Assembly (NCBI GenBank): GCA_963681505.1
Contig: OY811980.1
Span: 1,518,176-1,582,175 of the forward strand
Direction of reading: 5' to 3'
Origin: Eunapius fragilis
Taxonomy: Eukaryota; Porifera; Demospongiae; Spongillida; Spongillidae
Length of the DNA stretch: 64,000 nt
The position numbers and the translations under genes are program-made. Position 1 is the first letter of the stretch; each line of letters opens with the position of its first letter. The notes below the pieces were generated by a model that was given only the letters and a program-made list of their open reading frames with translations, did no database searches and was not told where the DNA came from. Of this stretch, positions 1,078 through 64,000 are shown one piece after another.

Positions 1078-2388
1078 ATGGATGAAGCAGTAAGCATTGT
1101 AGAGTACTTCCCAGGCAAGAAAGGTCACCACTGCGGTTACTGCAAATCGGAGGATGGCAGCGTATCCAACGGGATGTGGGGTCACTCGCTCACGTGCGAA
1201 GACTACCAAGACCTCATAGACAGAGGATGGAGACGCTCAGGAAATTACTGCTACAAACCCATCATGAAGGAGACGTGTTGTCCCGCGTACACCATACGCT
1301 GCGACGCCATCAACTTTACCCTGGCGCGGTCCCAGAAGGTGGTACTAAAGCGCATGCGGCAGTACCTCGAGGAGGGTAGGCGAGACAGGGCGACAGCCGC
1401 TGAGCCAGTCGAAACGACTCACGACGCCCACCGCGAAACAGTGACTGCATCTCCGACGGCGGTCCTTCTTCCCGCGCGTGCGGTCAAGTCCACAGACGCG
1501 CTACCCCCCTCAGCTACGCAGTCGGGAGGAGCGAGTACGACCAGCGAGCCACTACCGTTCCTCAAGGCGGGCGCGGACGGCAAAAAACCTCTCGAGGCTT
1601 TCCTGCAGCCGTCCGCCAAGTCATCGGCCCCTGCTCACACCCTTGAGATCAAACTGATTCCCTCTTGTCCCGCCTCTCCTGAATTCGATGCCACTTTCGC
1701 GGCTAGCCACGCCCTGTACAAGAAATACCAGTGCGCCGTCCACAACAGCACGGAGGACGAATGCGGAGAGGCCCAGTTCCGCCGATTCCTCTGCGACTCC
1801 CCCCTCGCCCCGTCGCGCGGGGCCTCCGGTTGGCCCTGCAACTACGGGTCGTACCACCAACACTACTACATTGACGGTCGCCTCGTCATGGTGGGTGTGG
1901 TCGACATCCTCCCCCGCTGTCTCTCCTCCGTGTACCTCTTCTACGACCCCGACGTCATGTTCCTCTCTCCAGGGGTCTACTCGGCCCTGAGAGAGATCGA
2001 GCTCACTCGCAAGCTGTACTTGGCTAGCCCGGATTTCAGATACTACTACATGGGCTTCTACATCCACAGCTGCCCGAAGATGCGCTACAAGGGACACTAC
2101 GCGCCCTCCTACCTCGCGTGCCCCGTGACCTACCGTTTCCTGCCCATAGAGGCGTGCTTGCCGAAACTTGATGCGTGCAAGTATTCTATCCTGGATGGGG
2201 AGAAAGAGAGGAAGGGGGAGGAGGTGCAAAAGTCATTGAGTAACATCGAGGTATTAATCAAAGGGTGCCGCGCAAACTATGCACAGCTGAACATCAGATA
2301 CAGGAAGGCGCTGGAAGCCCTTGTTACGGAGTATGCTACCTTGGTTGGGCCTGAGGTTTCAGCGAGGATGCTGCTGGCAGTGGACTAA
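1078..2388 (+). CDS. ATE1: Arginyl-tRNA--protein transferase (ATE1), intronless
   Basis: Transfers arginine from Arg-tRNA to N-terminal Asp, Glu or oxidised Cys of proteins, the last step before recognition in the Arg/N-degron pathway; cytosol and nucleus. The 436-aa frame begins at the ATG at 1078. Translation could be read open from a GTG at 1063, but that is not a likely animal start. The N-terminal ATE domain (about residues 6-95) carries the family cysteines C19, C22 (HHCGYC) and C67, C68 (TCCPAYTIRC), a pattern known in ATE1 to bind a redox-sensitive metal or Fe-S centre. A Ser/Thr/Ala-rich linker (about 95-200) separates it from the GNAT-like C-terminal ATE domain, with motifs YHQHYYIDG, VGVVDILPRCLSSVY, FYDPD and YYMGFYIHSC. 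Animal ATE1 is usually about 500-520 aa and multi-exon; here it is one uninterrupted exon, shorter mainly in the linker, and more GC-rich than its flanks. It converges on the adaptor gene at 2611. Confidence 0.95.
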   Translation: MDEAVSIVEYFPGKKGHHCGYCKSEDGSVSNGMWGHSLTCEDYQDLIDRGWRRSGNYCYKPIMKETCCPAYTIRCDAINFTLARSQKVVLKRMRQYLEEGRRDRATAAEPVETTHDAHRETVTASPTAVLLPARAVKSTDALPPSATQSGGASTTSEPLPFLKAGADGKKPLEAFLQPSAKSSAPAHTLEIKLIPSCPASPEFDATFAASHALYKKYQCAVHNSTEDECGEAQFRRFLCDSPLAPSRGASGWPCNYGSYHQHYYIDGRLVMVGVVDILPRCLSSVYLFYDPDVMFLSPGVYSALREIELTRKLYLASPDFRYYYMGFYIHSCPKMRYKGHYAPSYLACPVTYRFLPIEACLPKLDACKYSILDGEKERKGEEVQKSLSNIEVLIKGCRANYAQLNIRYRKALEALVTEYATLVGPEVSARMLLAVD

Positions 2389-2610: not shown

Positions 2611-5600
2611 TCAACGTTGAAATAAGTCAGGAAATTCTTCTCTAGCAAGTCTCCCATATCCTAACGCAACCAAGGCATCTTTTAGTGCAGTTCTGGTTGC
2701 TGCTTCTCCTTTTTCCACCTGCCAAAGCCCAAACATCCCCATGGCCGCCTTCCTAGTGTCATGAATGTGGGCTTCACGCAAAGCCTCCAGCCTTGAGTAG
2801 CTGAGCCCCAACCTGATACCAAGGTGTTGCCAGTCCCGAGGTAGGTACTCGGCTATTTTCATCATGGTGGTCTCTTGAACTTGCGATGACCCTGCAAAAC
2901 GTGAGAAGTCGACAGTCTTCTCACCCATGTGGCCCCACACACTCCCTCACATGTACCCTCATCCCATCACCATCAAACACATATACCTTCTTGGGATCAT
3001 ACCTATAAGCACAGTCACACTTCTATGCAAACAAAGATCTAGCTACCAGTGAGATACCATTTTGAATGATATATCCCGCAAACCAAATTGATCCTCATTT
3101 GTAAACCAATGAATACAAATCACCCTGTATGAACACACCTCCACCACCTCTGTGCTGTGGCAATACCGGAACGCTGGAAGGTCTGGGCCGAGGGTTTAGC
3201 GGCATGCCGAGCAGCCTGCTAAGCAACGAGGAAAGGCCTGGGCACCTACCACTGCCGATAGCCTCACCTAGCTGCTCCGGCCCCGACACTTCTTGTGCCA
3301 ACCGAGCCAGTTGGAGCTCATACCGTGACACTGTTTTCAGATGGTCTGGTACCCAGTCCTTATTGGTAGATTGATTCAGAAATATGGGGATGAATTTCTT
3401 TGGCACCACCAAATTGACAATAGAGTAGTTGTAGTATGACCCACAGTGCATTTCCATTAGTTGGTCTTGTGCCGTTTGAACTGAACTGGACATGAGGGGG
3501 GAGCAGACCAGGAGGGTGTGGTCATTCTTGTTAATCTGGTCTGTTGTCCACATATTCCAGTTATCAGGGGGGTGTGCCTCAGAGTATAAATCACATGAGC
3601 AAAGAATGCCGCACTGAGTCAAGACGTCTGCCAGACCCAAAATGTCCTCCCTCGATGGGTAGCCTTGATCGTCCTTACAGTACAGAAGGAACACTGACTT
3701 AGGGCCTGCAGGAGGAGGGGCCTCTGTATGTGGTACAATGGGTGTGGCTTCTTCAAGAGGTACCTGGCAGCTAGAAGGCTGATAGGGTCCACACTCCTGA
3801 TGCCTTTCAGCACCATTGGAACAGACCTCGGAGGAAGAGGGAGGTACAGAACCTGTTGGTAAGTTCCTCAATAGCTTCCTCATGTCTGCAGCCTCATCCC
3901 TTTGCCGGGCTGGAGGGAAACAAATGAGTGCAGATGTACCAGTCATGGGGTTAGAGTGGAGGTGTACCGGTGATGGTGTTAGAGTGGAGGTGTACCAGTA
4001 ATGGGATTAGAGTGGAGATGAACCAGTGATGGGGTTACCAGAGTGGGGGTGTACCAGTGATGGAGTATACCAGTGATGGTGTTAGAGTGGAGATGTACCA
4101 GTGATGGTGTTAGAGTGGAGATGTACCAGTGATGGTGTTAGAGTGGAGATGTACCAGTGATGGGGTTAGTGGGGTGTACCAGAGTGGGGGTGTACCAGTG
4201 ATGGAGTATACCAGTGATGGTGTTAGAGTGGAGATGTACCAGTGATGGTGTTAGAGTGGAGATGTACCAGTGATGGGGTTAGTGGGGTGTACCAGAGTGG
4301 GGGTGTACCAGTGATGGAGTATACCAGTGATGGTGTTAGAGTGGAGATGTACTGGTGATGGAGTGAGTGGGGTGTACCAGTGATGGTGTAAAGGCCGACA
4401 TACACGGGTCGACTCCCTGCCAATTTATCACCTGCAACTTAAATTAATACGGGTGAAAATTCAGTAAACTAAAGTTTTACGGAGTTTTACGAATTGCAGG
4501 CAATAAATCGGCAGGAAGTCGACCAGTGTATGTCGGCCTTTAGAGTGGGGATGTACCAGTGATGGGGTTAGATGAACCAGTGATGGGGTTAGAGTGGGGT
4601 GTACCAGTGATGGGATGTACCAGTGATGGTGTACCAGTGATGGGGTGTACCAGTGATGGGGGTGTACCAGTGATGGGGTTAGAGTGGGGGTGTACCAGTG
4701 ATGGGATGTACCAGTGATGGTGTACCAGTGATGGTGTACCAGTGATGGGGGTGTAGCAGTGATGGGGGTGTACCAGTGATGGGGTTAGAGTGGGGGTGTA
4801 CCAGTGATGGGTTAGTGGGTGTACCAGTGATGGGGTGTACCAGTGATGGGGTGTACCAGTGATGGGGTTAGTGTATAGAGCTTGGGAGGCACTGAGATGA
4901 GGTACTGGATGTGGTATTGGAATGGGTTATTGGAAAGAGGTACTGTAATGTGGTATTGGAATGGGTTATTGGAAAGAGGTACTGTAATGTGATGTTGGAA
5001 TGGGTTATTGGAAAGAGGTACTGGAATGGGGTATTGGAATGGGGTATTGGAATGGGATACAGGAAGGGAGAATGGGCATTTAACAGAGGTGTAATAAAGA
5101 GTTGCATACGTCATGTGATCTCACATAATCACGACAAAATGGATTCTGCCATTTTTGGATATAAATGGAGTAAACTTGTGTAGTCAGGTGCATAGTATGA
5201 GCAAGACAAAGGGTGAGGGGAGGGATGGGATAAAGAGAGAGGACGTGGAAGGGAAGAGGAGGGAAGGGAAAAGGAGGGGAAGAGGAGGAGAGGAAGAGGA
5301 GGAGAGGAAGAGGAGGGGAGGGAAAAGGAGGGGAAGGGGAAGGGAGGGAAGAGGAGGAGAGGAAGAGGAGGGGAGGGAAAAGGAGGGGAAGAGGAGGGGA
5401 GGGAAGAGGAGGAGGAAGAGGAGGGGAGGGGTAGAGGAGGAGAGGGAAGAGGAGGGAAGGGAAAGAGGAAGGAAAGGGAGGGGAAGGTGAAGGGAAGAGG
5501 AGAGAAGGGGAAAGAGAGGGGAAGAGGAGGGGAGGGGAAGGAAAGGGGAAGAGGAATAAGGGGAAGGAAAGGGGAAGAGGGATGAAGAGGGGAGAGGAAG

Positions 5601-5991
5601 GAGAGGGGAAAAGGAGAGGAGGGAAGGGTATGAGAGGGGGAGGAGACAGGAGGGGAAGGATGTAGAGGGAGGAAGGAGAAGGGGGAGAATACTCACAGAG
5701 ATAAGGACATGGGGGGACTTTTGCCACGTCCACTCCAATATTTACCGCTAGTTCAGATTGTCCGGACCACACTAAACACTTGCTGAACACTTCGAAATGG
5801 TCCCTTCCTTTTCTAGGCAGAATAATTAGAAGTTTCTCCCTCTTGGCCCGCTGAGAAAGGCTTGACTGATTTAATTGCTCGTACTCGTCCGCTGTTAGCA
5901 TCCGCTCCTGCCGGAGGTATGGGAGCACCTGGTCTACATTAAGCGCGTTACACAATTCTATGAAGTTGAGCTGTATTCTTCTGTCGGACAT
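2611..5991 (-). CDS. CARD-SEFIR-Death domain adaptor protein
   Basis: Probable cytosolic innate-immune or death-signalling adaptor. Three exons on the minus strand: 5991-5697, 3909-3250 and 2891-2611. Both junctions are phase 1 and the total is 1236 nt (411 aa). Exon 1 encodes a CARD (about residues 5-92), with LPYLRQERMLTADEYEQLN and the helix EKLLIILPRKGRDHFEVFSK. Exon 2 has a Ser/Pro linker, then a SEFIR/TIR-like domain (about 170-300) with box-1-like VFLLYCKDD, the stretch NWNMWTTDQINKNDHTLLVC followed by SP, and a later FIPIFLNQS strand. Exon 3 encodes a Death domain (about 325-405) with IAEYLPRDWQHLGIRLGL. A second donor at 3267, also phase 1, would shorten exon 2 by 18 nt. MyD88 (Death-TIR) and Act1 (SEFIR) are functional analogies, but I know no named gene with exactly this order. 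Intron 1 holds minisatellites and a MITE. The 5' end faces ANKRD13C. Confidence 0.87.
3950..4885. repeat. Minisatellite, ~28-bp unit, adaptor intron 1
   Basis: Imperfect tandem copies built on GTACCAGTGATGG and GTTAGAGTGG modules. On the sense (minus) strand it is pyrimidine-rich and each unit carries CTCTAAC, which resembles a branch point. It ends about 40 bp from the exon 2 acceptor. A MITE interrupts it at 4391-4540. Confidence 0.9.
4391..4540. mobile_element. 150-bp MITE with ~39-bp terminal inverted repeats
   Basis: The two ends are near-perfect inverted repeats of about 39 bp. The left end starts AAGGCCGACATACAC and the right end finishes GTGTATGTCGGCCTT. Both continue inward through GGTCGAC and a CTGCC/GGCAG block to ATTTAT/ATAAAT. 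TA dinucleotides flank it at 4389-4390 and 4541-4542, which fits the target-site duplication of Tc1/mariner-type elements. There is no coding capacity. It interrupts a minisatellite, so it arrived after that array formed. Confidence 0.85.
4895..5065. repeat. Short minisatellite, ~38-bp unit
   Basis: Three to four copies of a GGTATTGGAATGGGTTATTG-based unit with AAAGAGGTACTG, in the same adaptor intron. Confidence 0.85.
5208..5690. repeat. GA-rich low-complexity tract (CT-rich on sense strand)
   Basis: Nearly pure purine tract of GGAGGGGAAGAGGA-like units, directly after the donor of adaptor exon 1 (5696). Its complement encodes only Ser/Pro/Leu runs, so I do not treat it as coding. Confidence 0.9.
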
Positions 5992-6098: not shown

Positions 6099-9000
6099 AT
6101 GGCGAGCAACGGTTGTGTGCGAGGCGTGGCAGACGTAGCTTCCTACGAACTCCACAAAGCTGTATTCCACGGTGACTTGGAAGGGGTTAGACATATGTTA
6201 CGTGATGTCGGTAACCCTACCGTTCCAGATATGCACGGTAAGCAGCAGATCTGATGCAGTGGATCGCTTTATTTGGAAGGAAAACATGTAACAAAAGTCA
6301 AAGCTTTAAGATCCTCTTATCTCCTTCACAGGAAATACACCATTACATCTTGCAGTGATGTTAGGGCGCAAAGGTATAGTGATATGTGTGTTCTGATGTA
6401 TCCCCTCCTGGTACCATAACGTAACGTTACCCTCCTGGTACCATAACCTAACGTTACCCTCCTGGTACCATAACGTAACGTTACCCTCCTGGTACCATAA
6501 CGTAACGTTACCCTTCTGGTACCATAACCTAACGTTCCCTTCCTGACACCATAACCTAACGTTACCCTTCTGGTACCATAACCTAACGTTCCCCTCCTGG
6601 TATCATAACCTAACGTTCCCCTCCTGGTACCATAACCTAACGTTCCCCTCCTGGTACCATAACCTAACGTTCCCCTCCTGGTACCATAACATAACGTTAC
6701 CCTCCTGGTACCATAACCTAACGTTACCCTCCTGGTACCATAACCTAACGTTCCCCTCCTGGTACCATAACGTAACGTTTCCCTCCTGGTACCATAACAT
6801 AACGTTACCCTCCTGGTACCATAACCTAACGTTACCCTCCTGGTACCATAACCTAACGTTCCCCTCCTGGTACCATAACCTAACGTTCCCCTCCTGGTAC
6901 CATAACGTAACGTTTCCCTCCTGGTACCATAACATAACGTTACCCTCCTGGTACCATAACCTAACGTTACCCTCCTGGTACCATAACCTAACGTTCCCCT
7001 CCTGGTACCATAACGTAACGTTTCCCTCCTGGTACCATAACATAACGTTACCCTCCTGGTACCATAACCTAACGTTACCCTCCTGGTACCATAACCTAAC
7101 GTTACCCTCCTGGTACCATAACATAACGTTACCCTCCTGGTACCATAACCTAACGTTCCCCTCCTGGTACCATAACGTAACGTTTCCCTCCTGGTACCAT
7201 AACCTAACGTTACCCTCCTGGAACCATAACGTAACGTTTCCCTCCTGGTACCATAACCAAACATTACCCTCCTGGTACCTTTCTTGCTGAAAGTAAGTTT
7301 TCATTGAAGTGTTTCATTAATCATTTGGTCCTACTATTTGTATGTACCCATAAACCATGCAGTGAAGTGTGGTTGTGTGTTGCTGTGTAGGATTACCTGC
7401 CAAGCCTAAAGTTGGTAGGCCTATTCAGTTGGGCCAATGATATGTCAGGTGATGCATCCACATATATTTGCTGAGGTGATGGGTTCAAGTATTTATGTTC
7501 TAGAATGGATGTGGTATGTAGAGGGTTAATGGAAGCAGTAATTGATAAGGTCAGTGGATGTGGTATCAGTGGAGGCACTTACCATGGGAGGGAAGTTAGT
7601 TACCTCCCTCTCCCCCCAACTTTACCATGGCAATGACATACTTGAAATGAAAACCACGCAACTAGCACCCAACTAGAAAAGTCGCTGTTGGGCGTGTAGA
7701 TGGTTAACAGGTTGTGATAGGTAGAAGCCAATGGAGGTGGTTAATTGATGCAGCGTGAATTGATGCAGCATGGAGAAGGGTTAATGGTGCAGCATGAAAA
7801 GGGTTAATTGATACAGCATGGAGAAGGGTTAATTGATACAGCATGGAGAAGGGTTTAAGGGATGCAGCATGAAAAGGGTTAATTGAGAAGGGTTAATGTA
7901 TGCAGTGTGAAAAGGGTTAATTGATGCAGCATGGAGAAGGGTTGATGGAAAGAGTTAATTGATGCAGCATGAAAAGGGTTAATTGATGCAGCATGAAAAG
8001 GGTTAATTGATGCAGCATGGAGAAGGGTTGATGATGCAGCATGAGAAGGGTTAATTGGTGCAGTATGGAAAAGGTTAATGGATGCAGCATTAATATAACA
8101 AACCACATTTTCAGTTCAGCATAAAATGGATTTGTTACTAAATGTTCTGGTGGTTGGTTTATTATTGTCAGTCCTTGCCTTCATGTTTGGTTACCTTTGT
8201 TTAGTTGGCTGTGATTGGCCAATTGTGTGGTTGTCTGGTTCTTCTTTGACATTCATACCTCTCTCTGTGTTGCAGACATCATTGAGCTATTACTCCACCA
8301 TGGTGCTAAGGTGAATGAGAAGAATGGCCTTGGGTGGACCTCTTTGGATGAAGCTGTTAGCTGTGGAGACAAGCCAACTAGTGAGTAGCTTGTGGGAGTA
8401 TGAGAATGAGCAGATGGAATATGCCTCCATCTCATTACTAAGTGCTACTATACCATCCATAGATTGAGGGAGGATGAGTCATATGTAGAAAATTTAAAGG
8501 ACCAGACCGGTATATTAAAGAGCTATAGATGTTATTAAAGAGCTATAGATGTTATTAACAAGCTATAGCTGTTACTGAAGAGCTATAGATGGATCAAACA
8601 TGAACTATTATAGGACTGTGGGTTATAAAGGACCAGAGGGTTATCTAAAGGATTGTATGGATGACAGTTTAGAGCCTGAGTGATGGTGGATTAGCTAATT
8701 GAGGATTTAGGGGTGCATTTCATACCCAGTGGCCAGTGGCCATCTAAGCTGTATTTGCTTTGTTCTCTCTCAGTCACACTCCTGGTTCGAAAGATGCTTG
8801 ACCAATCGAGGGAAGGACTGATCAGCAGAAGGCAGGAGCTGATCAGATCTCTGAATTCTGTAAGCTAGTAAATACCAACACCAACACCGCTTACACTAAC
8901 ACTAACTCTGACACCAACACTAACACTAGCCCTAACACCAACACTAACTAGCCTAACACCAACACTAACACTAACACAACTCTAACGCTAGCCCTAACAC

Positions 9001-56514: not shown

Positions 56515-59500
56515 TAAGATAAGTGTACTGTAAGAGAAGTGTACTGTAAGAGAAATGTACTGTAAGTGAAGTGTACTGTAAGTGAAGTGTACTGTAAGTG
56601 AAGTGTACTGTAAGAGAAGTGTACTGTAAGTGAGGTGTACTGTAAGTGAAGTGTACTGTAAGAGAAGTGTACTGTAAGTGAAGTGTACTGTAAGTGAAGT
56701 GTACTGTAAGAGAAGTGTACTGTAAGAGAAGTGTACTGTAAGAGAAGTGTACTGTAAGTGAGGTGTACTGTAAGTGAAGTGTACTGTAAGAGAAGTGTAC
56801 TGTAAGTGAAGTGTACTGTAAGTGAAGTGTACTGTAAGAGAAGTGTACTGTAAGAGAAGTGTACTGTAAGTGAAGTGTACTGTAAGTGAAGTGTACTGTA
56901 AGAGAAGTGTACTGTAAGAGAAGTGTACTGTAAGAGAAGTGTACTGTAAGTGAGGTGTACTGTAAGTGAAGTGTACTGTAAGAGAAGTGTACTGTAAGTG
57001 AAGTGTACTGTAAGTGAAGTGTACTGTAAGAGAAGTGTACTGTAAGAGAAGTGTACTGTAAGAGAAGTGTACTGTAAGTGAGGTGTACTGTAAGAGAAGT
57101 GTACTGTAAGTGAAGTGTACTGTAAGAGAAGTGTACTGTAAGTGAAGTGTACTGTAAGTGAAGTGTACTGTAAGTGAGGTGTACTGTAAGTGAAGTGTAC
57201 TGTAAGTGAAGTGTACTGTAAGAGAAGTGTACTGTAAGTGAGGTGTACTGTAAGAGAAGTGTACTGTAAGAGAAGTGTACTGTAAGTGAGGTGTACTGTA
57301 AGTGAGGTGTACTGTAAGTGAGGTGTACTGTAAGTGAGGTGTACTGTAAGAGAAGTGTACTGTAAGAGAAGTGTACTGTAAGTGAGGTGTACTGTAAGTG
57401 AGGTGTACTGTAAGAGAAGTGTACTGTAAGAGAAGTGTACTGTAAGAGAAGTGTACTGTAAGAGAAGTGTACTGTAAGAGAAGTGTACTGTAAGTGAAGT
57501 GTACTGTAAGAGAAGTGTACTGTAAGTGAGGTGTACTGTAAGTGAAGTGTACTGTAAGAGAAGTGTACTGTAAGAGAAGTGTACTGTAAGTGAGGTGTAC
57601 TGTAAGTGAAGTGTACTGTAAGAGAAGTGTACTGTAAGTGAGGTGTACTGTAAGTGAGGTGTACTGTAAGTGAGGTGTACTGTAAGAGAAGTGTACTGTA
57701 AGAGAAGTGTACTGTAAGAGAAGTGTACTGTAAGTGAAGTGTACTGTAAGTGAGGTGTACTGTAAGTGAAGTGTACTGTAAGTGAAGTGTACTGTAAGAG
57801 AAGTGTACTGTAAGTGAAGTGTACTGTAAGTGAAGTGTACTGTAAGTGAAGTGTACTGTAAGAGAAGTGTACTGTAAGTGAAGTGTACTGTAAGTGAGGT
57901 GTACTGTAAGTGAAGTGTACTGTAAGTTAAGTGTACTGTAAGAGAAGTGTACTGTAAGTGAGGTGTACTGTAAGAGAAGTGTACTGTAAGTGAGGTGTAC
58001 TGTAAGTTAAGTGTACTGTAAGAGAAGTGTACTGTAAGTGAGGTGTACTGTAAGAGAAGTGTACTGTAAGTGAGGTGTACTGTAAGAGAAGTGTACTGTA
58101 AGAGAAGTGTACAGTAAGTGAGGTGTACGGTAAGAGAAGTGTACTGTAAGTGAAGTGTACTGTAAGTGAAGTGTACTGTAAGTGAAGTGTACTGTAAGAG
58201 AAGTGTACTGTAAGTGAGGTGTACTGTAAGTGAAGTGTACTGTAAGAGAAGTGTACTGTAAGTGAAGTGTACTGTAAGAGAAGTGTACTGTAAGAGAAGT
58301 GTACTGTAAGAGAAGTGTACTGTAAGTGAAGTGTACTGTAAGTGAAGTGTACTGTAAGAGAAGTGTACTGTAAGTGAGGTGTACTGTAAGTGAGGTGTAC
58401 TGTAAGTGAGGTGTACTGTAAGTGAGGTGTACTGTAAGTGAAGTGTACTGTAAGAGAAGTGTACTGTAAGAGAAGTGTACTGTAAGTGAAGTGTACTGTA
58501 AGTGATGTGTACTGTAAGTGATGTGTACTGTAAGTGAGGTGTACTGTAAGAGAAGTGTACTGTAAGAGAAGTGTACTGTAAGTGAAGTGTACTGTAAGTG
58601 AGGTGTACTGTAAGAGAAGTGTACTGTAAGTGAGGTGTACTGTAAGTGAAGTGTACTGTAAGTGAAGTGTACTGTAAGAGAAGTGTACTGTAAGTGAGGT
58701 GTACTGTAAGAGAAGTGTACTGTAAGTGAGGTGTACTGTAAGTGAGGTGTACTGTAAGTGAGGTGTACTGTAAGAGAAGTGTACTGTAAGAAGTGTACTG
58801 TAAGTGAAGTGTACTGTAAGAGAAGTGTACTGTAAGTGAGGTGTACTGTAAGTGAAGTGTACTGTAAGAGAAGTGTACTGTAAGTGAAGTGTACTGTAAG
58901 AGAAGTGTACTGTAAGTGAAGTGTACTGTAAGTGAGGTGTACTGTAAGTGAAGTGTACTGTAAGTGAGGTGTACTGTAAGAGAAGTGTACTGTAAGTGAA
59001 GTGTACTGTAAGTGAAGTGTACTGTAAGTGAAGTGTACTGTAAGAGAAGTGTACTGTAAGTGAAGTGTACTGTAAGTGAGGTGTACTGTAAGTGAAGTGT
59101 ACTGTAAGTGAAGTGTACTGTAAGTGAAGTGTACTGTAAGTGAAGTGTACTGTAAGTGAGGTGTACTGTAAGTGAAGTGTACTGTAAGAGAAGTGTACTG
59201 TAAGAGAAGTGTACTGGTAAGAGAAGTGTACTGTAAGAGAAGTGTACTGTAAGAGAAGTGTACTGTAAGTGAGGTGTACTGTAAGTGAAGTGTACTGTAA
59301 GAGAAGTGTACTGTAAGTGAAGTGTACTGTAAGTGAGGTGTACTGTAAGAGAAGTGTACTGTAAGTGAGGTGTACTGTAAGTGAAGTGTACTGTAAGTGA
59401 AGTGTACTGTAAGAGAAGTGTACTGTAAGTGAAGTGTACTGTAAGAGAAGTGTACTGTAAGAGAAGTGTACTGTAAGAGAAGTGTACTGTAAGTGAGGTG

Positions 59501-62500
59501 TACTGTAAGTGAAGTGTACTGTAAGAGAAGTGTACTGTAAGTGAAGTGTACTGTAAGTGAAGTGTACTGTAAGTGAAGTGTACTGTAAGTGAAGTGTACT
59601 GTAAGTGAAGTGTACTGTAAGTGAAGTGTACTGTAAGAGAAGTGTACTGTAAGTGAAGTGTACTGTAAGAGAAGTGTACTGTAAGTGAGGTGTACTGTAA
59701 GTGAAGTGTACTGTAAGTGAAGTGTACTGTAAGTGAGGTGTACTGTAAGTGAAGTGTACTGTAAGAGAAGTGTACTGTAAGTGAGGTGTACTGTAAGTGA
59801 AGTGTACTGTAAGAGAAGTGTACTGTAAGTGAAGTGTACTGTAAGTGAAGTGTACTGTAAGTGAAGTGTACTGTAAGTGAAGTGTACTGTAAGAGAAGTG
59901 TACTGTAAGTGAAGTGTACTGTAAGTGAAGTGTACTGTAAGTGAGGTGTACTGTAAGTGAAGTGTACTGTAAGTGAAGTGTACTGTAAGAGAAGTGTACT
60001 GTAAGAGAAGTGTACTGTAAGTGAAGTGTACTGTAAGTGATGTGTACTGTAAGTGAGGTGTACTGTAAGAGAAGTGTACTGTAAGAGAAGTGTACTGTAA
60101 GTGAAGTGTACTGTAAGTGAGGTGTACTGTAAGAGAAGTGTACTGTAAGTGAGGTGTACTGTAAGTGAAGTGTACTGTAAGTGAAGTGTACTGTAAGAGA
60201 AGTGTACTGTAAGTGAGGTGTACTGTAAGAGAAGTGTACTGTAAGTGAGGTGTACTGTAAGTGAGGTGTACTGTAAGTGAGGTGTACTGTAAGAGAAGTG
60301 TACTGTAAGAAGTGTACTGTAAGTGAAGTGTACTGTAAGAGAAGTGTACTGTAAGTGAGGTGTACTGTAAGTGAAGTGTACTGTAAGAGAAGTGTACTGT
60401 AAGTGAAGTGTACTGTAAGAGAAGTGTACTGTAAGTGAAGTGTACTGTAAGTGAGGTGTACTGTAAGTGAAGTGTACTGTAAGTGAGGTGTACTGTAAGA
60501 GAAGTGTACTGTAAGTGAAGTGTACTGTAAGTGAAGTGTACTGTAAGTGAAGTGTACTGTAAGAGAAGTGTACTGTAAGTGAAGTGTACTGTAAGTGAGG
60601 TGTACTGTAAGTGAAGTGTACTGTAAGTGAAGTGTACTGTAAGAGAAGTGTACTGTAAGTGAAGTGTACTGTAAGTGAGGTGTACTGTAAGTGAAGTGTA
60701 CTGTAAGAGAAGTGTACTGTAAGAGAAGTGTACTGGTAAGAGAAGTGTACTGTAAGAGAAGTGTACTGTAAGAGAAGTGTACTGTAAGTGAGGTGTACTG
60801 TAAGTGAAGTGTACTGTAAGAGAAGTGTACTGTAAGTGAAGTGTACTGTAAGTGAGGTGTACTGTAAGAGAAGTGTACTGTAAGTGAGGTGTACTGTAAG
60901 TGAAGTGTACTGTAAGTGAAGTGTACTGTAAGAGAAGTGTACTGTAAGTGAAGTGTACTGTAAGAGAAGTGTACTGTAAGAGAAGTGTACTGTAAGAGAA
61001 GTGTACTGTAAGTGAGGTGTACTGTAAGTGAAGTGTACTGTAAGAGAAGTGTACTGTAAGTGAAGTGTACTGTAAGTGAAGTGTACTGTAAGTGAAGTGT
61101 ACTGTAAGTGAAGTGTACTGTAAGTGAAGTGTACTGTAAGTGAAGTGTACTGTAAGAGAAGTGTACTGTAAGTGAAGTGTACTGTAAGTGAAGTGTACTG
61201 TAAGTGAGGTGTACTGTAAGTGAAGTGTACTGTAAGTGAAGTGTACTGTAAGAGAAGTGTACTGTAAGAGAAGTGTACTGTAAGTGAAGTGTACTGTAAG
61301 TGATGTGTACTGTAAGTGAGGTGTACTGTAAGAGAAGTGTACTGTAAGAGAAGTGTACTGTAAGTGAAGTGTACTGTAAGTGAGGTGTACTGTAAGAGAA
61401 GTGTACTGTAAGTGAGGTGTACTGTAAGTGAAGTGTACTGTAAGTGAAGTGTACTGTAAGAGAAGTGTACTGTAAGTGAGGTGTACTGTAAGAGAAGTGT
61501 ACTGTAAGTGAGGTGTACTGTAAGTGACGTGTACTGTAAGTGAGGTGTACTGTAAGAGAAGTGTACTGTAAGAAGTGTACTGTAAGTGAAGTGTACTGTA
61601 AGAGAAGTGTACTGTAAGTGAGGTGTACTGTAAGTGAAGTGTACTGTAAGAGAAGTGTACTGTAAGTGAAGTGTACTGTAAGAGAAGTGTACTGTAAGTG
61701 AAGTGTACTGTAAGTGAGGTGTACTGTAAGTGAAGTGTACTGTAAGTGAGGTGTACTGTAAGAGAAGTGTACTGTAAGTGAAGTGTACTGTAAGTGAAGT
61801 GTACTGTAAGTGAAGTGTACTGTAAGAGAAGTGTACTGTAAGTGAAGTGTACTGTAAGTGAGGTGTACTGTAAGTGAAGTGTACTGTAAGTGAAGTGTAC
61901 TGTAAGACAAGTGTACTGTAAGTGAAGTGTACTGTAAGTGAGGTGTACTGTAAGTGAAGTGTACTGTAAGAGAAGTGTACTGTAAGAGAAGTGTACTGGT
62001 AAGAGAAGTGTACTGTAAGTGAAGTGTACTGTAAGAGAAGTGTACTGTAAGTGAGGTGTACTGTAAGTGAAGTGTACTGTAAGAGAAGTGTACTGTAAGT
62101 GAAGTGTACTGTAAGTGAAGTGTACTGTAAGTGAGGTGTACTGTAAGTGAGGTGTACTGTAAGAGAAGTGTACTGTAAGTGAGGTGTACTGTAAGTGAAG
62201 TGTACTGTAAGAGAAGTGTACTGTAAGTGAAGTGTACTGTAAGTGAAGTGTACTGTAAGTGAAGTGTACTGTAAGTGAAGTGTACTGTAAGAGAAGTGTA
62301 CTGTAAGTGAAGTGTACTGTAAGTGAAGTGTACTGTAAGTGAGGTGTACTGTAAGTGAAGTGTACTGTAAGAGAAGTGTACTGTAAGTGAGGTGTACTGT
62401 AAGTGAAGTGTACTGTAAGAGAAGTGTACTGTAAGTGAAGTGTACTGTAAGTGAGGTGTACTGTAAGTGAAGTGTACTGTAAGAGAAGTGTACTGTAAGT

Positions 62501-64000
62501 GAAGTGTACTGTAAGTGAAGTGTACTGTAAGTGAGGTGTACTGTAAGTGAAGTGTACTGTAAGAGAAGTGTACTGTAAGTGAAGTGTACTGTAAGTGAGG
62601 TGTACTGTAAGAGAAGTGTACTGTAAGTGAGGTGTACTGTAAGTGAAGTGTACTGTAAGTGAAGTGTACTGTAAGAGAAGTGTACTGTAAGTGAAGTGTA
62701 CTGTAAGAGAAGTGTACTGTAAGAGAAGTGTACTGTAAGAGAAGTGTACTGTAAGTGAGGTGTACTGTAAGTGAAGTGTACTGTAAGAGAAGTGTACTGT
62801 AAGTGAAGTGTACTGTAAGTGAAGTGTACTGTAAGTGAGGTGTACTGTAAGTGAGGTGTACTGTAAGTGAGGTGTACTGTAAGTGAAGTGTACTGTAAGT
62901 GAAGTGTACTGTAAGTGAGGTGTACTGTAAGTGAAGTGTACTGTAAGTGAAGTGTACTGTAAGAGAAGTGTACTGTAAGTGAGGTGTACTGTAAGTGAAG
63001 TGTACTGTAAGTGAAGTGTACTGTAAGTGAAGTGTACTGTAAGTGAAGTGTACTGTACAAGAAGTGTACTGTAAGTGAAGTGTACTGTAAGTGAAGTGTA
63101 CTGTGAGGTGTACTGTAAGTGAAGTGTACTGTAAGTGAAGTGTACTGTAAGTGAGGTGTACTGTAAGAGAAGTGTACTGTAAGTGAAGTGTACTGTAAGT
63201 GAGGTGTACTGTAAGTGAGGTGTACTGTAAGTGAGGTGTACTGTAAGTGAAGTGTACTGTAAGTGAGGTGTACTGTAAGTGAAGTGTACTGTAAGAGAAG
63301 TGTACTGTAAGTGAAGTGTACTGTAAGTGAGGTGTACTGTAAGTGAAGTGTACTGTAAGTGAAGTGTACTGTACAAGAAGTGTACTGTAAGTGAAGTGTA
63401 CTGTAAGTGAAGTGTACTGTGAGGTGTACTGTAAGTGAAGTGTACTGTAAGTGAAGTGTACTGTAAGTGAGGTGTACTGTAAGAGAAGTGTACTGTAAGT
63501 GAAGTGTACTGTAAGTGAGGTGTACTGTAAGTGAGGTGTACTGTAAGTGAGGTGTACTGTAAGTGAAGTGTACTGTAAGTGAGGTGTACTGTAAGTGAAG
63601 TGTACTGTAAGAGAAGTGTACTGTAAGTGAAGTGTACTGTAAGTGAGGTGTACTGTAAGTGAAGTGTACTGTAAGTGAAGTGTACTGTAAGAGAAGTGTA
63701 CTGTAAGTGAGGTGTACTGTAAGAGAAGTGTACTGTAAGTGAGGTGTACTGTAAGAGAAGTGTACTGTAAGAGAAGTGTACTGTAAGTGAAGTGTACTGT
63801 AAGTGAAGTGTACTGTAAGTGAAGTGTACTGTAAGTGAAGTGTACTGTAAGAGAAGTGTACTGTAAGTGAGGTGTACTGTAAGTGAAGTGTACTGTAAGA
63901 GAAGTGTACTGTAAGTGAAGTGTACTGTAAGTGAGGTGTACTGTAAGTGAAGTGTACTGTAAGTGAAGTGTACTGTAAGAGAAGTGTACTGTAAGTGAAG
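56515..64000. repeat. 16-bp satellite array, ~465 copies, running off the right edge
   Basis: Units TGAAGTGTACTGTAAG with A/G, T/A variants (GAGGTG, AGAGAAG) for at least 7.4 kb. On the sense strand of the Kelch gene each unit reads CTTACAGTACACTTCA. It ends about 10 bp from the acceptor at 56506. Sixteen times three is 48, so a stop-free unit stays open in all three frames, giving false frames of 1300-2300 codons. Rare variants recur at fixed spacing, showing higher-order duplication. Confidence 0.97.

Follow-up and report, generated by a model that had tools for sequence, protein, structure and literature searches.

A predicted sponge adaptor joining CARD, SEFIR and Death modules, with caspase-like relatives in the same genome

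Do the CARD, SEFIR and Death modules read from one sponge locus belong to a single protein and, if so, what might such a protein do? The locus was analysed within a stretch of 64,000 nucleotides, hereafter the window. Splicing three minus-strand exons (5991-5697, 3909-3250 and 2891-2611) yields a 411-aa frame ending with a TGA at 2611, which confirms the claim of the preliminary description that both junctions are in phase 1, that the exons sum to whole codons and that the model comprises 411 aa. Exon 1 (5697-5991) provides the start codon and the CARD (Pfam CARD at 5746-5973), exon 2 (3250-3909, phase 1 at both ends) a proline-rich linker followed by the SEFIR (Pfam SEFIR at 3314-3697), and exon 3 (2611-2891) the Death domain (Pfam Death at 2644-2859) and the stop codon. 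Both adaptor introns are in phase 1 because exons 1 and 2 measure 295 and 660 nt; intron 1 (3910-5696; 1,787 nt) consists mostly of minisatellites, and intron 2 (2892-3249) is 358 nt long. Donors (GTGAGT and GTAGGT) and acceptors (TTTCCCTCCAG and GTTTTGCAG) are ordinary GT/AG signals. Since the ATG (5991) is preceded, five codons upstream, by an in-frame TGA, the N-terminus looks complete, barring an upstream exon.

The main positional argument for assigning the three exons to one gene comes from the neighbours, which lie on the opposite strand and bound the stretch. On the 3' side is a convergent ATE1 arginyltransferase gene (1078-2388, plus strand; ATE_N 89.6 bits, ATE_C 149.8 bits), the stop of which is at 2388. 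On the 5' side is a divergent ankyrin-repeat gene (6099-8388, plus strand; Ank 54.2 bits), given here by its first exons, joined by eye, with an approximate end; its ATG at 6099 is 107 nt from the adaptor ATG. From this gene model, we predict that the CARD, SEFIR and Death exons are spliced into one mature mRNA. Minisatellites pack window positions 3926-5686 (adaptor intron 1) and 6403-7279 (an intron of the ankyrin gene), and a 16-bp satellite (AAGTGTACTGTAAGTG, 468 copies) occupies 56521-64000, reaching the window end.

Profile failure for CARD or SEFIR had been named earlier as grounds for abandoning the three-module reading. In a search with a Pfam library of 24,736 models and curated cut-offs, all three domains score above cut-off: CARD at aa 7-82 (41.6 bits, E 1.3e-10, cut-off 23.9; 45.2 bits with exon 1 alone), SEFIR at aa 170-297 (35.8 bits, E 1.2e-8, cut-off 23) and Death at aa 330-401 (28.2 bits, E 2.2e-6, cut-off 22.6). 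Because they exceed curated cut-offs in a library of this size, these matches are not due to chance. The only further Pfam matches in the adaptor, CARD_2 and TIR_2, are both under cut-off (19.6 bits vs 28 for TIR_2), and none of its Pfam matches is to a catalytic domain. The mean hydropathy over 19 residues peaks at 1.51, i.e. no strongly hydrophobic segment by this one simple measure, and by it the adaptor is predicted to be soluble, without a transmembrane segment. The linker after the CARD comprises 69 residues, 11 of them prolines. The predicted structure of exon 1 (CARD) reaches a pLDDT of 79 and that of the SEFIR a pLDDT of 36, the SEFIR being assigned solely from its sequence profile. 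A whole-protein search of the 219-Mb genome detected no second copy of the adaptor.

Three Pfam SEFIR exons are found genome-wide at E 0.001 or better (218.9 Mb, 24 contigs), including that of the adaptor. The nearest SEFIR match of the adaptor in the whole-protein search (E 1.8e-4) belongs to a gene on contig C21 (L002/L034; C21:2082k-2085k, SEFIR exon 2083352-2083717), which carries a caspase-like domain (52.3 bits) together with SEFIR (29.7 bits) and Death (35.7 bits). About 70 kb away, a sibling gene (L047; C21:2013k-2015k) carries a caspase-like domain (41.3 bits), a Death domain (28.4 bits) and a sub-threshold SEFIR (17.4 bits vs the Pfam cut-off of 23). The SEFIR-Death parts of the two genes are 26% identical over 472 columns. 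When the L002 SEFIR region is used in a reverse search (E up to 1), three matches are returned: itself, L047 (6e-22) and the adaptor (2e-5). Pairwise, the SEFIRs of the adaptor and L002 share 27.5% identity across 138 columns (E 8e-11), while their Death domains give a colinear but weak match (E 0.077). L047 is absent from the whole-protein genome search with the adaptor at E up to 1; its pairwise match has an E-value of 3.7e-4. The caspase-like domain of L002 is nearest to caspase-3 (E 4e-4) and holds SGHG and DCCC stretches; we regard it as a predicted protease domain with putative catalysis. This caspase-like-SEFIR-Death arrangement is the more surprising part of the results, and possibly the more unusual architecture of the family.

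A phase-1 intron is modelled ahead of the SEFIR exon in the adaptor, L002 and L047, the junctions of the latter two being picked by eye. In L047, no donor of the form GTRAG turned up when the stretch was scanned by pattern; the model uses GTAAAT, and the frame stays open with four of the ten acceptors tried. A 48-nt intron between SEFIR and Death in L002 is doubtful (its length is divisible by three, no stop interrupts it and L047 lacks an intron there), and the intron comparison is therefore restricted to the one before the SEFIR exon; the 740-aa model of L002 may accordingly lack 16 residues. One further SEFIR-Death candidate (C11:302422, E 0.27) was rejected, as inspection by eye revealed a Death domain preceded by an LRR-like frame, with no SEFIR seen.

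Outside this genome, a profile of five of its SEFIR regions matches seven solved chains, among them 'Sefir domain protein' (3e-5), the chains of which we take to be bacterial, and TRAF3IP2 (Act1; 1.6e-4), and none of the seven listed is an IL-17 receptor. With a profile of the three adaptor-type SEFIRs only, Toll-receptor-related 2 (TIR; 0.005) comes ahead of Act1 (0.02). The SEFIR exon alone matches one unrelated chain among solved sequences (E 0.98), and no relative was confirmed in viral contigs or prokaryote genomes, from 2 and 21 pattern matches, respectively.

The best solved-sequence matches of the adaptor CARD are CARD9 and CARD11, although they are weak (E 0.003-0.011), and RAIDD, caspase-9 and CED-3 are matched within about 2.5 bits of CARD9; the preference for CARD9 over RAIDD or caspase-9 amounts to about 1.5 to 2.5 bits, a margin too narrow to separate CARD subtypes. 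CARD9 and CARD11 are reported to nucleate BCL10, and a change at CARD9 R35 to block CARD9 filaments (PMC6624267), while a change at R70 breaks the CARD9-BCL10 contact (PMC9342958). At the positions matching R35 and R70, the adaptor CARD has arginine. Of ten named CARD9 interface or disease residues, mapped by eye, five (R35, D43, R57, R70 and G72) are identical in the adaptor, three filament residues (R29, K58 and D66) are not conserved, and E15 and R18 lie outside the phmmer alignment; arginine also takes the place of the zinc residue H73. Eleven of the 32 other CARD matches in the genome were compared and retain between 0 and 3 of the five identical positions, a selective comparison since it was confined to these positions, which were chosen after the alignment was seen. 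The agreement with CARD9 may be a lead toward a BCL10-like partner, not a test of it. On C19, a 537-aa open frame (L062; C19:1926115) shows two CARD-like stretches and TPR-like repeats by eye; a matching frame lies about 49 kb away, and both hold a CARD nearest to that of the adaptor (36% identity).

Candidate partners are present in the same genome. The third Pfam SEFIR exon, on C15, is preceded by a strongly hydrophobic segment and is thus a candidate for an IL-17-receptor-like protein. A tandem copy upstream of it, with 59% identity across 148 columns, gives no match to Pfam SEFIR, and no Pfam family is matched by the four open frames interpreted as outer exons of this receptor; the label 'IL-17 receptor' therefore rests on one exon with a hydrophobic segment and a SEFIR. 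On the ligand side, there are 12 matches to the IL17 family (C2:585k-625k and C17:4.1-5.7 Mb; L028-L031), of which 11 have E-values of 2.2e-5 or lower. A 2021 survey reports no IL17 in Amphimedon and the oldest in cnidarians, with one Amphimedon Pfam entry noted (PMC8353272), and IL-17 signalling is among the enriched KEGG pathways in an RNA study of Ephydatia muelleri symbiosis, the relevant text of which is silent on the adaptor gene described here (PMC7882143). Genome-wide, we detected 33 CARD matches with E-values of 0.01 or lower (32 of which exceed the cut-off), at least 150 scored Death matches out of 380 candidates, four TIR matches and three Rel homology exons within 3.4 kb. One of the TIR exons follows a Death exon at a distance of about 4.5 kb on C2 (1825909-1830696, minus strand), and the pair is a possible MyD88. 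The best candidate CARD partner found is a putative BCL10-like protein on C13, where a CARD (L005/L036; C13:7056495-7056716) in a 224-aa open frame matches BCL10 at 6e-8 vs CARD11 at 4.5e-5.

Of the 24 caspase-domain matches (caspases and paracaspases pooled), not one occurs within 500 kb of a CARD match (33 in all). A CARD-caspase was thus not detected with searches of this sensitivity, which could miss one with long introns or a divergent CARD. MALT1 was sought by a single family search. Its MALT1_Ig match on C10 (20.1 bits; 49.4 bits with neighbours, with three stops inside) is a minisatellite and was rejected as spurious, the open frames of this stretch resembling by eye an acyl-CoA-dehydrogenase gene. 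This agrees with a report in which sponges are listed with only the simpler type 2 paracaspases and type 1 predates the cnidarian-bilaterian ancestor (PMC5978004).

The preliminary description had suggested that the protein could bridge IL-17-like, Toll-like and caspase pathways in an early animal. The link from SEFIR to a protease has become concrete through the caspase-like-SEFIR-Death relatives; the Toll side finds no backing, TIR_2 scoring under its cut-off, nor does a CARD-caspase partner, given the distances above. The early-branching host is borne out by a mitochondrial genome with atp9, a gene whose mitochondrial location points to a demosponge. Contig 24 is this mitochondrial DNA (28,504 nt), carrying cox2, atp8, atp6, cox3, cob, atp9, cox1, nad genes and tRNAs, with the genes on one strand by eye.

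We consider it reasonably probable that the protein is soluble and serves receptor-like SEFIR proteins as an Act1/CIKS-type adaptor in which death-fold modules have been swapped. Under this proposal, its SEFIR would engage the SEFIR tails of transmembrane SEFIR proteins from the same genome, and receptor clustering would let its CARD and Death domains nucleate partners in polymer-type signalling. The CARD would seed a CARD partner, for which the BCL10-like protein is the best candidate, the Death domain would recruit Death-domain proteins, and the end point would be NF-kB. The relatives on C21 suggest a second output, through a caspase-type protease held in cis. SEFIR-SEFIR docking, both death-fold outputs and the NF-kB end point are inferred. 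Several observations speak against this reading: the different position of the Death domain; the profile of three adaptor-type SEFIRs, which ranks a TIR protein above Act1; the low-confidence SEFIR model (pLDDT 36); the small margin of CARD9 over RAIDD or caspase-9; the absence of L047 from the whole-protein search; the missing Pfam matches of the tandem receptor copy and of the outer receptor frames; and the spurious MALT1_Ig match.

The same domains might be wired differently. If the adaptor CARD recruited a caspase-type protease in trans, the output would be cell death or proteolysis instead of NF-kB. By domain-fusion logic, this would agree with the C21 genes, which fuse a caspase-like domain to SEFIR-Death in cis and whose SEFIR is closest to that of the adaptor, and with the near-equal CARD matches to RAIDD, caspase-9 and CED-3. 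We nevertheless regard it as unlikely, since, at the sensitivity of these searches, no CARD match has a caspase-domain match within 500 kb and since catalysis by the relatives' caspase-like domain is putative. Alternatively, the adaptor may act as a negative regulator, capping the caspase-like-SEFIR-Death proteins or competing with them at receptor tails: it shares SEFIR and Death with these protease-bearing relatives and has death-fold domains at both ends, without a catalytic domain in its Pfam matches. However, the arginine at the CARD9 R35 position fits an active CARD slightly better (PMC6624267), and we give this possibility a slim chance.

Another alternative is that the locus makes two products: one would contain just the CARD and terminate within the intron, and the other, with SEFIR and Death, would start separately, for example at an early ATG of exon 2. 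The 1.8-kb junction is predicted from genomic sequence, exon 2 has an in-frame methionine ahead of the SEFIR, and exon 1 reads on through repeats to a stop at codon 304. Yet the splice signals are ordinary and the phases match, the stretch is bounded by the opposite-strand ATE1 stop (2388) and ankyrin ATG (6099), and L002 and L047 are modelled by eye with the same phase-1 junction before the SEFIR exon, which makes two products very improbable. The Act1-type adaptor is thus the reading we retain.

A sponge CARD-SEFIR adaptor whose relatives carry a caspase-like protease domain suggests another specific way in which IL-17 receptor signalling could have been wired in early animals, and the family is a candidate case of intron-based module swapping in immune adaptors. 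A broader hypothesis, in which we place little confidence, is that SEFIR-Death adaptors whose N-terminal module is swapped at the phase-1 intron wire IL-17-receptor-like proteins both to CARD polymers (BCL10-like) and to caspase-like proteases. If so, type 1 paracaspases and the CARD-coiled-coil scaffolds would be younger than a receptor-to-BCL10-type route, and at the base of animals caspase-type proteolysis would belong to the same system as IL-17 signalling.

How does the adaptor compare with known systems? It shares a Pfam CARD with the CARD-coiled-coil family (CARD9 and CARD11), whose CARD is its weak best solved match, but in the adaptor the CARD is followed by the proline-rich linker, and to our knowledge CARD9 and CARD11 carry no SEFIR or Death. 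Like MyD88, it combines a death-fold with a TIR-like docking domain in one protein; however, MyD88 has Death then TIR, whereas in the adaptor the order is reversed, with Death after SEFIR and TIR_2 under cut-off. Closer are Act1/CIKS (TRAF3IP2) and ACTL-1, which are also SEFIR adaptors: ACT1 orthologs of most non-amniote lineages are reported to have a DD-SEFIR architecture, joining Death to SEFIR, and C. elegans ACTL-1 complexes with IRAK and MALT-1, work from which an Act1-IRAK-MALT1 complex was proposed as the original IL-17 route (PMC7190641). Act1 has Death then SEFIR, whereas the adaptor has CARD, SEFIR and a C-terminal Death. Vertebrate Act1 also has a U-box-like region, and the adaptor is without a U-box, as no further Pfam domain passes its cut-off. 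Similarly, in another early-branching animal, a placozoan MyD88-like protein combines SEFIR and Death; it was compared by its description, which mentions no CARD, and two placozoan TIR+CARD proteins are named in the same source (PMC6321704). Among sponges, SEFIR sequences are given for Dysidea avara (one in the text, two in a table) in a source that does not provide their architecture there (PMC12909245). Among the matches listed in the literature searched, no protein with CARD and SEFIR, or with SEFIR before Death, is described (caspase-SEFIR fusions were outside that search), and a search for hyphenated architecture names gave, among the matches listed, the DD-SEFIR sentence only. The novelty first attributed to the linking of these modules was thus overstated for SEFIR and Death, already joined in non-amniote Act1 (PMC7190641) and in the placozoan protein (PMC6321704). 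As far as these sources extend, adaptors with Death and SEFIR were already known, and what appears new in the sponge protein is a CARD joined to a SEFIR, with the SEFIR ahead of Death.
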